Below are positions 6,816 through 63,379 of a DNA stretch of 64,000 nucleotides, one piece after another. The first letter of the stretch is position 1. Each line of letters opens with the position of its first letter. Source of the DNA: Treponema sp. (GTDB lineage: Bacteria > Spirochaetota > Spirochaetia > Treponematales > Treponemataceae). The stretch spans positions 1 through 64,000 of the forward strand of contig PDOP01000043.1 of the NCBI GenBank assembly GCA_002749205.1, read 5' to 3'. The position numbers were made by a program, and so were the translations under genes. Below the pieces are notes generated by a model. The model saw nothing but the letters and a program-made list of their open reading frames with translations, was not told the DNA's origin and ran no database searches.

Positions 6816-6990
6816 TTTTATCGCTCCCGCTCTACAACCCGACGGGCTAGCATAATCTTCTGTCCTTTACTGAAAAATAAAAATATCGTCTCTAACAGAG
6901 CCGACTTTTCTTAAATAAAAATCGGACAGAAGGATAGACAAGCCCGTCCAAATCAGGTTAAATATTTTGCGAATAAGGCCGGTATCCTGC
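6816..6990 (+). repeat. TSE-1 structured element copy E2
   Basis: Outer GACGGGCT/AGCCCGTC (6841-6848/6941-6948); inner TTCTGTCC/GGACAGAA (6858-6865/6924-6931); apical CG-T-CTCT-aac-AGAG-C-CG (6887-6903); tail AAATCAGGTTAA...CCGGTATCCTGC. Confidence 0.85.
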
Positions 6991-7090
6991 TTAAAAAAGA
7001 TAATTTTAAAAAAAAGTAACTATTTATGTATTGCTTTGTTGTATACATGTTAATATTTATATATCAATATATTAGTTTTGGAGGAATTTT

Positions 7091-9317: not shown

Positions 9318-9558
9318 AGTATTTTTTGAAAATACTTCATTCCTTCGCTGCTAATATCGTTGCGCGTGCGTGGCGAAAACCGTCTATCCTTTCGTCCGCT
9401 CAAAATTTAAAAAGAAAAGGTGGTTGTAGCGAAAGCGGAAAACACCGATTAAGAAAAACATATAAGGACGAAAGATTATGCGGTTGGAGCGGGTTGCAAA
9501 GTAAAGTGTTGTGGAAACAACAATTTAATACTGTTTCTCATTTCAACACTTTACTTTA
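9286..9558 (-). repeat. TSE-1 structured element copy E3
   Basis: Inner CTTTCGTCC/GGACGAAAG (9389-9397/9466-9474); outer AACCG/CGGTT (9378-9382/9481-9485); apical GGTG-[G.A]-TT..AA/CACC (9419-9446); extra hairpins GGAATGAAGTATTTT/AAAATACTTCATTCC (9311-9325/9329-9343) and AAAGTAAAGTGTTG/CAACACTTTACTTT (9498-9511/9544-9557). Confidence 0.8.
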
Positions 9559-10453: not shown

Positions 10454-10535
10454 AAATACCTCCAAAATATTATGTAATCTAATTTTATTATAACATATTG
10501 TTCAATTCTGTCAAGAACCATTTAAAATTTTTGAA

Positions 10536-10630
10536 AGGGGGTGTATCCCCCTAGCTCCAAAAAACGCCGGTCTTTTGCAAGTGGCTCCGGTTATGTTTTT
10601 TTTAACGGCGTTGTTTTTCCGCTACCCCCC
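10536..10630 (-). repeat. TSE-2 element copy b
   Basis: AGGGGGTGTATCCCCCT 10536-10552; AACGCCG/CGGCGTT 10563-10569/10606-10612; GTTTTTCCGCTACCCCCC 10613-10630. Confidence 0.75.
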
Positions 10631-10799
10631 AAAGTAAAAGACAGCTATACATAAAGTCAACGATACACTACACTATTACAAAGCGAAATGTTTTTTTCAT
10701 AAAACTTCAATATAAACTTAAATATAAAATGACAGAAGCCCTATAATAAATAGTGCCGCTATCTATTGAAAAAAAAAATTATTTATGTTAGTTTGCATT

Positions 10800-17807: not shown

Positions 17808-17936
17808 GAGGGGGAGCCTCCCCCTCGCTTGCAAAAAATTGCCTTTTTTCTTTTTTTAAATTATATCGAGTCTTCGTCCCTACAGCCTCGATTTCTTATA
17901 AATTTAAGCAAGGCAATTGTTTTTCCGCTACCCCCC
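17808..17936 (-). repeat. TSE-2 element copy c
   Basis: GAGGGGGAGCCTCCCCCTC 17808-17826; AATTGCCTT/AAGGCAATT 17837-17845/17910-17918; inner ATCGAG/CTCGAT; TTTTCCGCTACCCCCC to 17936. Confidence 0.75.
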
Positions 17937-18047: not shown

Positions 18048-18254
18048 AGAATACCGGCGTGCTATACAAACTCGGTTAACCTGATTTTAAGCTCGCCGTT
18101 ATCCTTTTGTTTGATTGGTTTATTCAGTTAAAAGCGGCTCATTTTGAGACGCTGATTATTATGGCAGAAAAAAACAAAAGATTTAAGGCGAGCGCCGGTT
18201 GCAGAGCATTAAATCTTGAAGGATTTTACAAATCCTTCAAGATTTAATAGCGAT
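18048..18254 (-). repeat. TSE-1 structured element copy E4
   Basis: GCTCGCC/GGCGAGC 18091-18097/18187-18193; TTTTGTTT/AAACAAAA 18105-18112/18172-18179; apical GCG-G-CTC..GAG-A-CGC 18134-18152; extra hairpin TTAAATCTTGAAGGATTT/AAATCCTTCAAGATTTAA 18209-18226/18230-18247. Confidence 0.87.
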
Positions 18255-23919: not shown

Positions 23920-24152
23920 TTTAAACGCTTGAAATGTTAATTGAATACCCAAAAGGATTGATAAATACTTACAACATTTCAAGCGTGCAACCCGACGGGC
24001 TTGCATAACCTTTTTGTCTCTACCGTTTAGTTCCAATCGCTGTTCTACGCTTTCGCTTCGACCGCTCTTATCTGATGTACCAATCGACAAAAAGTGTAGA
24101 CTAAGCCCGTCCACGCACGCACTATCGTACTGACTAACAGTCCGGTATGCTT
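23920..24152 (+). repeat. TSE-1 structured element copy E5
   Basis: GACGGGCTT/AAGCCCGTC 23994-24002/24103-24111; TTTTTGTC/GACAAAAA 24011-24018/24086-24093; extra hairpin ACGCTTGAAATGTT/AACATTTCAAGCGT 23925-23938/23973-23986. Confidence 0.83.
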
Positions 24153-25291: not shown

Positions 25292-25466
25292 TCAGAATAC
25301 CAGAGAGTTACCCAAATTTGTTTAACATGATTTTAAGCTCGCCGTTATCCTTTTTGGCGTTTAAAATAATAACACAAGCCGGTCGCCGGTAGAAGAACGG
25401 CAAATCAAAATAATCAAAAAAGCCAAAAAGATTTAAGGCGAGCGCGGGTTGCAGAGCGATAGCGAC
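25292..25466 (-). repeat. TSE-1 structured element copy E6
   Basis: GCTCGCC/GGCGAGC 25337-25343/25437-25443; TTTTTGGC/GCCAAAAA 25351-25358/25422-25429; apical GCCG-G-TC..GA-A-CGGC 25378-25401. Confidence 0.85.
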
Positions 25467-32189: not shown

Positions 32190-32380
32190 TTTTGTGCAAC
32201 GCTTCGCTTTTGCCTTCCAACCCCACGAAGTGCTTGTATCTTTTTGACTTTACTTTTGCATTATAAGCAAGTTTTTCCATTTCCATTTCAAACCTTGCAG
32301 ATAGCTTTTATAAGCGTCAAAAAGGATACCGCACTTCTTAAAATCAGCCTATAATTAACACTTTTTCCGCCGGTTTTCTG
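32190..32380 (+). repeat. TSE-1 structured element copy E7
   Basis: GAAGTGC/GCACTTC 32227-32233/32331-32337; TTTTTGAC/GTCAAAAA 32241-32248/32316-32323; apical GCAAG-T-TTT..AAA-C-CTTGC 32267-32298. Confidence 0.87.
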
Positions 32381-32436: not shown

Positions 32437-32655
32437 AGAATACCACAGTGCAATGCAGTACGCTAATCGCGTGCGTGGAGCGGCGAAGTCTACATTTTTT
32501 GTCGATTAAAAAAAACAAAAAAGGTGGTCTGAGAAAAGAGCGAAGAACACCGATTAATATATTAACCAAAGACAAAAAAGTTATGCGAGCCGCTCGGGTT
32601 GTCCGCGTGAAATCTTGAAATTGACTTTTAGACAATTTCAAGATTTCACAAGCGA
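32437..32655 (-). repeat. TSE-1 structured element copy E8 (tail-to-tail with E7)
   Basis: GAGCGGC/GCCGCTC 32478-32484/32589-32595; TTTTTTGTC/GACAAAAAA 32495-32503/32571-32579; apical GGTG-G-TCT..AGA-A-CACC 32523-32551; extra hairpin GTGAAATCTTGAAATTG/CAATTTCAAGATTTCAC 32607-32623/32633-32649. Confidence 0.87.
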
Positions 32656-39639: not shown

Positions 39640-39820
39640 TAAGTGCAACGCTTACGCTTTTGCATCCACCCCTCGCCTGCCTTAAATCTTTTGTTTTTTT
39701 CTTATAAAAGCAATCGCCGTCTAATTACCATTAGCCGGCTTTATTTCTAAACACAATCAAACAAAAGGATATCGGCAGTCTCAAAATCAGAATAAGCGTA
39801 CTGTTTTCATTTTGGGATTT
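39640..39820 (+). repeat. TSE-1 structured element copy E9
   Basis: CTGCC/GGCAG 39677-39681/39774-39778; TTTTGTTT/AAACAAAA 39689-39696/39759-39766; apical GCCG-T-CTAAT-tacc-ATTAG-C-CGGC 39716-39739. Confidence 0.85.
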
Positions 39821-42511: not shown

Positions 42512-42594
42512 GGGGGGTAGCGGAAAAACAACTGTTTTTGCAAGTGTTTCACTTGCAAAAACAGTTTTTTGAAGCGAGGGGGATACACCCCCTT
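42512..42594 (+). repeat. TSE-2 element copy d
   Basis: GGGGGGTAGCGGAAAAACA; perfect 17-bp stem AACTGTTTTTGCAAGTG-ttt-CACTTGCAAAAACAGTT 42530-42566; GAAGCGAGGGGGATACACCCCCTTT. Confidence 0.85.
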
Positions 42595-42676: not shown

Positions 42677-43705
42677 ATGGCAAAGTCAATAGGTATAAAA
42701 TTAGCAGACGGAAGTTTTTATCCCATTCTGGAAAATGGGGCAGTCCACCAAGAGCTTGAATTAACTACTGTACGCGATAATCAGGAGACAGTTCAAATTG
42801 ATTTATTCAGAAAGAACGATGATGCTTTGCCTGAGTATATAGGCTCCTTAATGGTTGAAGGAATTGCCGAAAAAGATGCGGGGGAAGCTACAATTAGCTT
42901 AAACCTAAACATTGATGAAGACAATAATCTTTCGGCAGAAGCTGTCGATTTGGATTCAAATGCCAAGCAGGCATTAAAGGTTTCTCTTGAGCCGGCCGGA
43001 GAAATCGGCGAAAATACAGATTTTGATTTAATTGATTCACAAGCCTCACTTGAAGAAACTCAGACGGATTTTGATTATAATTTTTCACCCGACTTTGACG
43101 ATGAAGATAATGAAAAAACAAAAGGCTCGGGATTGCCAAAATGGCTTTTGGCATTATTTTTGTTGGCGGGAATTGCCGCTTTGGTAATAGCGGTATTGCT
43201 GTTTACGCGTGGCTGTAGAGTAAAAGACCCTGCTGCCGAGCTTAACAAAAAGGAACCTGTTGCAACAAAACCGGCTGATACTACAACAAGCATTCCGCCA
43301 ACACCGAGTGCGAATGAACAAGCCAAGAAAGCAGAAGAAGCCAAGAAAGCAGAAGATGCCAAGAAAGCTGAAGAAGCCAAGAAAGCTGAAGAAGCCAAAA
43401 AGGATGAAGAAGCCAAGAAAGCTGAAGATGCCAAAAAGGATGAAGAAGCCAAGAAAGCAGAAGATGCCAAGAAAGCTGAAGATGCCAAGAAAGCTGAAGA
43501 TGCCAAAAAGGCTAAAAAAACACCTATTGAAAAAACAGCTTCGGGTGCGGTCAGATATAAACTCAAATGGGGAGATACATTATGGGACTTATCTGAAACA
43601 TTTTATAAAACCCCGTGGGACTATAAAAAAATAGCTGACTACAACAATATAAAAAATCCGAGTCATGTTATCGCGGGAACTTATATAAATATTCCGCCTA
43701 AATAA
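42677..43705 (+). CDS. LysM-domain membrane protein with TolA-like AKKAEE/AKKAED repeat
   Basis: TM GLPKWLLALFLLAGIAALVIAVLLFTRG; C-terminal LysM YKLKWGDTLWDLSETFYKTPWDYKKIADYNNIKNPSHVIAGTYINIP. Confidence 0.88.
   Translation: MAKSIGIKLADGSFYPILENGAVHQELELTTVRDNQETVQIDLFRKNDDALPEYIGSLMVEGIAEKDAGEATISLNLNIDEDNNLSAEAVDLDSNAKQALKVSLEPAGEIGENTDFDLIDSQASLEETQTDFDYNFSPDFDDEDNEKTKGSGLPKWLLALFLLAGIAALVIAVLLFTRGCRVKDPAAELNKKEPVATKPADTTTSIPPTPSANEQAKKAEEAKKAEDAKKAEEAKKAEEAKKDEEAKKAEDAKKDEEAKKAEDAKKAEDAKKAEDAKKAKKTPIEKTASGAVRYKLKWGDTLWDLSETFYKTPWDYKKIADYNNIKNPSHVIAGTYINIPPK
43322..43519 (+). repeat. 11 x 18-nt in-frame tandem repeat (AKK[A/D]E[E/D])
   Basis: Unit GCCAAGAAAGCTGAAGAT with variants, 11 hexapeptides. 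Confidence 0.95.
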
Positions 43706-47659: not shown

Positions 47660-47862
47660 AATAAAAAAAGAAATCCCAACAAGGTAATCAAAACGATTAA
47701 ACTGATTTGGACATCTTGCCGGTATCCTTTTGTCCGATTAAATTCAGGCAAAAAGACCTTTGACCGGAGGGAAAAGCGTCTATTGTGTTTATAAAAAAGG
47801 ACAAAAGATTTAAGGCAGATGTCGGGTTGGACAGCAAAAGCGAAAGCGTTGCACAAAGTTTA
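47660..47862 (-). repeat. TSE-1 structured element copy E13
   Basis: GACATCT/AGATGTC 47710-47716/47817-47823; TTTTGTCC/GGACAAAA 47728-47735/47799-47806; GGGATTTCTTTT tail like E11. Confidence 0.8.
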
Positions 47863-54473: not shown

Positions 54474-54656
54474 TATGCAACGCTTGCGCTTTTGCATTTC
54501 AACCCTCGCCTGCCTTAAATCTTTTGTTTTCTTCTTCTAAAAACGATCACCGTCTCACTACCGTGAGCCGGCTCTACTTTTTAATACACAAAACAAAAGG
54601 ATACCGGCAGGCTTCAAAATCAGGTTAAGTATTCTGAAAATCCGGCCGGTTTTCTG
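54474..54656 (+). repeat. TSE-1 structured element copy E10 (representative)
   Basis: GCCTGCC/GGCAGGC 54508-54514/54606-54612; TTTTGTTT/AAACAAAA 54522-54529/54591-54598; apical CCG-T-CTCAC-tacc-GTGAG-C-CGG 54550-54571; tail CAAAATCAGGTTAA...CCGGTTTTCTG. Confidence 0.9.
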
Positions 54657-54695: not shown

Positions 54696-54825
54696 GGGGG
54701 TAGCGGAAAAACAATTGTCATGTTTAAATTAAGGTTGTAGGTTTTCTCTGACGGTTAGGAAGAGAAAACTCATGTAAATAATTTACATGGCAATTTTTTG
54801 CAAGCGAGGGGGAGGCTTCCCCCTC
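54696..54825 (+). repeat. TSE-2 element copy e
   Basis: GGGGGTAGCGGAAAAACAATTG; AATTG-t-CATGT / ACATG-g-CAATT 54713-54723/54785-54795; inner GTTTTCTCT/AGAGAAAAC; GCGAGGGGGAGGCTTCCCCCTC. Confidence 0.8.
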
Positions 54826-54857
54826 TTAAAAAAAATTTGAATATTTTTTTAACAGCC

Positions 54858-59559: not shown

Positions 59560-59726
59560 AAAGCAACCCTCGCCGGACTTAAATCTTTCTTCCTTATATG
59601 ATGATTATAATCGTTGTCTAAGTATAGCCAACTTTTCTTAAATTTTAATCGGAAGAAAGGATATCGTCCGGCTCAAAATCAGGTTAAACGATTTATTGGG
59701 CAATAAAGGGATTTCTTTTGATAACC
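59560..59726 (+). repeat. TSE-1 structured element copy E11
   Basis: GCCGGAC/GTCCGGC 59572-59578/59666-59672; CTTTCTTCC/GGAAGAAAG 59585-59593/59651-59659; apical GTTG-T-CTA-agta-TAG-C-CAAC 59613-59632. Confidence 0.88.
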
Positions 59727-59935
59727 ACGACCTGCGTTAGCGATTGTAGGAACGTCTGCCGTGTTTTTTAAAAACACGGCAGACGGATCCATTTTGCACA
59801 ATAATTTATTGTGCAAAATTAGCCGAAGCGATAGCGGAGTTCCGAAATGAGCGGCGGTTTGATTTAAGAAAAACTTTTATTTTTTTAATCTCAAACCGCA
59901 ACGCCCAAATGAATTATTTTCATTCAATAAGTCGT

Positions 59936-63143: not shown

Positions 63144-63379
63144 ATCGCAAGCCTTTGAATTGAGCCTGTTTACACAGGCTTCAATTCAAAGGCTTTTGCT
63201 CTCAACCAGCGTCTGACTTAAATCTTTGTTCCTTTAACTGCTTGAAATAATCAAAGTCTCGATAGATACTTTTAGTCTCAATAATCGAGCCTTCTTTTCT
63301 GATTGATAACAAGCGGAACAAAGGATACCGTCAGACTTAAAATCAGTGCAAGCGTAATGTTTATCACGCCGGTTTTCTG
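63144..63379 (+). repeat. TSE-1 structured element copy E12
   Basis: GTCTGAC/GTCAGAC 63211-63217/63330-63336; CTTTGTTCC/GGAACAAAG 63224-63232/63315-63323; apical AAG-T-CTCGAT..ATCGAG-C-CTT 63254-63293; 5' hairpin AGCCTTTGAATTGAGCCTGT..ACAGGCTTCAATTCAAAGGCTT. Confidence 0.88.

Follow-up and report, generated by a model that had tools for sequence, protein, structure and literature searches.

A short hairpin at positions 59613-59632 of the window, by which we mean the whole 64,000-nt stretch of DNA analysed here, carries one opposed T and C within its stem. The hairpin belongs to a repeat found in many copies in its genome (1.91 Mb, 69 contigs, 91% complete), which judging by its genes is that of a Treponema-like spirochaete, and the question it raises is why a stem whose flanking pairs change from copy to copy should keep a non-pair at one step. 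A sequence-only reading had called the repeat TSE-1 (F1 in this study) and proposed that the invariant T.C is a recognition determinant for a protein or a recombinase. The letters are as that reading gave them, GTTG-T-CTA-agta-TAG-C-CAAC, with the T at 59617 and the C at 59628. For convenience we refer to the strand on which T.C is read as the first-read strand.

F1 is a high-copy intergenic repeat

F1 was surveyed with a covariance model, R1, which we built from 13 copies with the entire middle of the element, apex included, set to N as a guard against bias. R1 matched 178 sites at E<=0.05 across 1.125 Mb of sequence, made up of the window and 60 fetched stretches, and gave at least 117 matches in a first survey of the genome itself. 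The resulting density of ~1 copy per 6 kb corresponds to roughly 300 copies per genome, a figure that is possibly somewhat high because the 60 stretches were picked around earlier matches. Twelve copies lie in the window (Table 1). The element is ~130-190 bp long and has several helices, and the mean pairwise identity among its copies is 52%.

F1 is non-coding and intergenic, with 167 of 172 copies lying outside ORFs of >=90 aa. The classes of intergenic gap that hold F1 are the same as those of gaps overall, and in tandem gaps 49 copies run along the genes versus 42 that run against them. This lack of orientation bias led us to reject F1 as a cis-acting leader of adjoining genes and, together with the intergenic scatter, fits scattered mobile DNA rather than a leader of particular genes. 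High copy number, intergenic placement and absence of coding sequence are also MITE-like traits. Many F1 copies form near-identical pairs, in which the common identity blocks start at the CAACCC edge of the element. The opposite, far edge is placed inexactly, and with the element so delimited the words common to its flanks are no commoner than in shuffled flanks (our assay for a target-site duplication), and no empty sites were found in the fetched part of the genome.

Outside its own genome F1 was found neither in 40 related genomes searched with R1 nor in 30 searched with a second model, R2, and phage records, plasmid records and viral contigs gave no match. An exact split pattern run against the GTDB genome collection returned three matches in unrelated MAGs, which we take to be chance. 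Rfam gave no match at gathering score in the window or in ten F1/F2 loci, on which ground F1 was rejected as a known Rfam RNA family; at a relaxed threshold the locus at 59564-59684 gave chance-like matches only.

Several other features were observed in and around these repeats. Perfect palindromes of unrelated sequence lie at or near the 5' edge (first-read strand) of many F1 copies, for example at window positions 18208-18248 and 59752-59820, and the 3' part of F1 copies has further long palindromes inserted in it, as though these were places where hairpins form or are captured. Downstream of F1 on the first-read strand, as at 6958-7010, conservation extends to a second domain, which reads AGAAAACCGG..ACGCTTAACCTGATTTT on the folded strand and apparently contains a short stem that covaries (GCGT/ACGC or GTGT/ACAC, for example). 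Elsewhere in the window, at 43279-43555, an 18-base tandem repeat array within an ORF encodes a lysine/alanine/glutamate-rich repeat.

Table 1. Copies of F1 and F2 in the window; letters of hairpins and mismatches refer to the folded strand, and the last column gives the covariance models that matched and further remarks.
Feature	Position	Strand	Model or remark
F1 copy with the studied hairpin, closing stem to apex	59564..59684	- (folded strand)	R1 89.1 bits on +; R2 122.5 bits on -
Apical hairpin GUUG-G-CUA..UAG-A-CAAC	59613..59632	-	G opposite C59628, A opposite T59617
F1, apex G.A at 6887-6903	6835..6958	-	R1, R2
F1, long-loop apex G.A at 9419-9446	9369..9496	+	R1
F1, apex G.A at 18134-18152	18079..18201	+	R1, R2
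F1, diverged, probably copy E5 of the sequence-only reading; G.A at 24039-24065, extra base in outer stem	23988..24120	-	R1, R2
F1, apex G.A at 25378-25401	25325..25451	+	R1, R2
F1, apex G.A at 32267-32298	32218..32349	-	R1, R2
F1, apex G.A at 32523-32551	32469..32601	+	R1, R2
F1, apex G.A at 39716-39739	39666..39792	-	R1, R2
F1, alternative apex at 47755-47780, single-base bulge, no G.A	47700..47829	+	R1, R2
F1, apex G.A at 54550-54571	54500..54625	-	R1, R2
F1, long apical stem with G.A at 63254-63293	63203..63348	-	R1, R2
F2 copy (GGGGGTAGCGG frame), same module; hairpin CGAG-G-CU..AG-A-CUCG at 17867-17890	17810..17935	-	R2
F2 frame, different central stem UCU/AGA, no G.A	54696..54834	+	

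The mismatch is present in most copies

Within the window, T.C is clean in ten of the 12 F1 copies. In the copy at 23988 it lies in an irregular stem, and at 47701 the apex differs, reading GAC-G-CTTT..AAAG-GTC with a single-base bulge. Over the genomic copies the apex was scored in two ways. When the best two-part hairpin was chosen with the step treated as an unscored wildcard, T.C was observed in 102 of 156 copies, with T.T second at 10. When hairpins were instead ranked by energy, with bulges and perfect stems permitted as well, T.C was assigned to 74 of 172 copies and a single 5' bulge to 30 of 172 (G in 23, T in 7), while the rest were perfect stems or other classes, often with T.C as a close second. 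In about a sixth of F1 copies a bulged apex takes the place of the mismatch, and this apex may represent an alternative form that is also recognised. The earlier statement that nearly every copy carries T.C is therefore correct for most copies on the wildcard count and too strong in its wording.

The structure probably folds on the opposite strand

A structure selected on one strand tolerates G-T wobble mispairs on that strand and does not tolerate A-C, and the pattern is reversed on the other strand. In the apical stem alone this asymmetry is weak on the first-read strand (10 versus 5, with the same trend as below) and is indecisive, so the long stem was used for the strand call. There, mispairs on the first-read strand were C.A in 17 distinct arm contexts, A.C in 2 and T.G in at most 1 (the sole T.G context being a copy with an apparent inserted base), counts that include related copies and in which the use of distinct contexts lessens the effect of kinship without removing it. 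Because the C.A mispairs of the long stem are U.G wobbles of the opposite strand, the folded strand, as judged from these sequences, is probably the opposite one and not the strand that the sequence-only reading had taken. On that strand T.C becomes a G.A mismatch, set in 5'-G-G-Y-U...A-R-A-C-3'.

Model R2 was built on this opposite strand and used to align 150 copies (alignment A5), in which mispairs were G.U 58 versus A.C 12, the alignment itself being fitted to that strand. An independent hint is provided by a third repeat family, F3, whose outer stem alternates among C-G, U.G and U-A on the same folded strand. The folded molecule is most likely RNA. G.T is better tolerated than A.C in DNA too, and the strand asymmetry is thus also compatible with single-stranded DNA. 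The strand correction matters practically, as assays on the first-proposed strand would use the wrong molecule.

A non-pair is kept inside a covarying helix

In A5, which leans towards its own model R2 (the wildcard count described above was made without it), pairing reaches 99.3% in the long stem (helix 2) and 98.5% in the apical helix (helix 3), with changes on both sides in six of the six apical pairs. At the mismatch step, by contrast, standard pairs make up 7.3% of rows (9 of 123). The structure scored 0.612 for covariation; shuffles gave 0.187, with 0 of 500 reaching the observed score, and slid controls gave <=0.107. On the folded strand, the letter combinations at the step were G.A in 108 rows, A.A in 6, U-A in 6 and G-C in 3, with the other 27 of the 150 rows missing one or both letters, and a restored pair occurs in at least four copies. 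When copies were clustered at 70% identity, G.A was found in 29 of 39 clusters. Tabulated over the genomic copies in both of these ways, as T.C in the wildcard count and as the paired fraction in A5, the step is neither random nor often Watson-Crick, and the view that a non-pair is constrained within a covarying helix is upheld.

The G of the step is kept in 111 of 123 rows, and the second A of A-R-A-C is kept in 127 of the 130 rows with a letter there. Since this A is retained opposite G, A or U and also where no partner is present, we infer that the determinant is the adenosine rather than the mismatch as such.

The mismatched hairpin recurs in two other repeat families

The internal loop adjoining the F1 hairpin is A/U-rich and pseudo-symmetric: read on the folded strand, its two sides share one consensus, GAUUAUAUUUU..AAGAAAA. 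The order of elements in the module is a helix, the A/U-rich internal loop and the hairpin NNNG-G-Y-U-loop-A-R-A-CNNN. Outer and inner pairs of the hairpin vary freely while pairing, and the letters that are kept are G-G-Y-U / A-R-A-C, above all the second A.

R2 also matched repeats other than F1. In the F2 family, with the frame GGGGGTAGCGGAAAAACAATTGCC...GGCAATTTTTTGCAAGCGAGGGGGA..CCCCC, the hairpin is CGAG-G-CU..AG-A-CUCG, preceded by UUUUUAAGAAA and followed by AUAUAAUUU..AAGAAAA; 20 F2 copies carry G.A, including the one at window positions 17810-17935. In F3 the outer stem is UUAAUGCC/GGCGUUAA and the hairpin is AGUG-G-UU..AA-A-CACU, and by inspection nine F3 copies have a genuine G.A, three of which received another automatic label, a shifted reading or one on the opposite strand having scored better. 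Outside the repeat families, the bare motif showed no clear excess in the fetched sequence apart from F3, as judged over 16 letter combinations. That three different outer stems carry the mismatched hairpin together with a similar loop is the best evidence that hairpin and loop form what is probably a recognised unit. The proposal that the mismatch is a recognition determinant is thus well supported by the recurrence of the same motif in two other repeat families.

The F2 frame, GGGGGTAGCGG..AGCGAGGGGGA, ends in a terminator-like GGGGGA..UCCCCC, and its central hairpin is variable. It is present in the window at 17810-17935 (-), 54696-54834 (+), 42513-42583 (+) and 10530-10632 (-) and in relatives (L135-L143). 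The frame was found in 9 of 41 genomes, that of F1 included, in several families of the order, and it has no Rfam match; in other genera of the order its central stems are different ones. The bulged F1 apex (window 47701-47829 and locus L053:7445-7576) has a loop similar to that found in some F2 copies.

Searches for recombinases and known element classes

Searches of the 91%-complete genome gave no match to the Y1 (HUH) transposase family PF01797, for which control genomes were positive, none to reverse transcriptase PF00078, which the missing 9% or a location elsewhere could hold, and none to the IS110 DEDD recombinase PF01548. F1 was rejected as an IS200/IS605 or REP/RAYT element for want of a Y1 transposase in the genome and also for its architecture, as the expected terminal hairpin, conserved in sequence and flanked by a fixed tag, is absent, the stem letters vary freely and the mismatch lies in an internal apical hairpin. 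Candidacy as an IS110 bridge-RNA element failed on the lack of a DEDD recombinase in the genome, and candidacy as a retron or group II intron derivative on the lack of a reverse transcriptase in the part of the genome searched. Integron attC sites have RYYYAAC...GTTRRRY core boxes and a dedicated integrase; the F1 outer stem covaries freely and, compared by eye, misfits such fixed boxes. For the classes searched, the suggestion that a recombinase recognises the mismatch is unsupported, as no Y1/RAYT, reverse transcriptase or IS110 enzyme was detectable in the 91%-complete genome and no duplication or empty site was seen.

A putative recognition module and its alternatives

We propose that the G.A hairpin is the apex of a portable recognition module carried by a high-copy, non-autonomous repeat. 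From the sequence patterns described above, we cautiously favor a reading in which the repeats undergo at least occasional transcription, the transcribed module folds, and one putative trans-acting RNA-binding factor docks on it in all three families, recognising the step centred on the adenosine. The three non-autonomous families would then all depend on this one factor, either for propagation or for the processing or stability of their transcripts. We regard as doubtful the stronger claim that F1, F2 and F3 depend on the same cellular RNA-binding machine via one exchangeable hairpin module, F2 being a family whose frame is also found in other families of the order. If true, it would give bacteria an equivalent of the short elements that subsist on trans-supplied factors.

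The same letters could instead be read in single-stranded DNA, where a recombinase or transposase would recognise the mismatch in the hairpin and move the repeat, as occurs with IS200/IS605, REP/RAYT and integron attC. F1 does behave like mobile DNA, having identity blocks with a sharp 5' edge and copies that are scattered without orientation bias, and RAYT is described in part of the REP literature as recognising single-stranded REP DNA (PMC3733652). Such a reading is distinctly unlikely given that Y1 transposase, reverse transcriptase and IS110 were all absent from the 91%-complete genome search, that neither the comparison of flank words with shuffles nor the fetched part of the genome revealed a duplication or an empty site, and that stem letters vary freely whereas loops are conserved. 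The G.A step might also serve a purely intramolecular purpose in RNA, for example in a tertiary contact or a ribozyme core, with no protein partner. The symmetric purine-containing loop and near-invariant A do resemble internal RNA architecture, and the conserved motif is short and structural. We nevertheless consider this role rather unlikely, as Rfam gave no match at gathering score and only chance-like ones at the relaxed threshold, and as the module recurs on outer stems that are unrelated, so that any contact partner would need to travel along with it.

A further explanation requires no selection at all, the mismatch simply having been inherited from a master copy and not yet lost. Restored and altered steps do exist (U-A 6, A.A 6, G-C 3 in A5). 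However, the mismatch has persisted at a mean identity of 52%, with both sides of every neighbouring pair altered, and it recurs in three families; we give the absence of selection very little credence. Plain inheritance from one master is unlikely because of this low identity and because G.A persists in 29 of the 39 clusters formed at 70%. Returning to the favored reading of a module recognised in trans, high-copy bacterial repeats are usually called selfish with no handle known. Here, a single adenosine in a G.A step is constrained amid covariation and may offer a handle common to three families, and the putative partner is directly testable with a short RNA as bait and a single-base change as control.

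Comparison with known repeat systems

Repeats of related type have been described in other bacteria. In the text available from PMC6542083, bcr1 and other Bacillus cereus repeats are short, intergenic, present in up to 130 copies per genome, group-restricted and endowed with mobile features, and bcr mobility is tied to TTTAT motif repeats; bcr1 is also listed as having conserved secondary structure in the available part of PMC2267715. F1 is like bcr1 in being short, intergenic, high-copy and restricted to one group. Unlike bcr, F1 showed no duplication signal at its flanks. REPs, according to the sections available from PMC3733652, are tagged palindromes of 20-40 bp tied to tyrosine transposases, and P. 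aeruginosa elements of family GTAG-24 have a constant unpaired GA. F1 resembles the GTAG-type REPs as a set of high-copy hairpins, but at ~130-190 bp it is longer and has several helices, and no Y1 transposase was found in its 91%-complete genome.

MITE-like small mobile sequences of bacteria, as presented in the available text of PMC2229807, are non-autonomous and often intergenic, are bounded by terminal inverted repeats and can yield structured RNA that acts on neighbouring transcripts. In contrast to MITEs, F1 has no noticed terminal inverted repeats and no duplication was found, and its conserved part is an internal module. Among spirochaetes, Borrelia plasmids carry structured intergenic RNA motifs, according to the portion available from PMC2674063, and F1 is like these in being intergenic with what is probably a conserved RNA structure. 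The available literature on bcr1, small mobile sequences and REP families, whose coverage here is incomplete, contains no description of a mismatched module common to several families. Judged against these sources, group-restricted, high-copy, structured intergenic repeats are already known, and what appears to be new is the mismatched module that is common to families.
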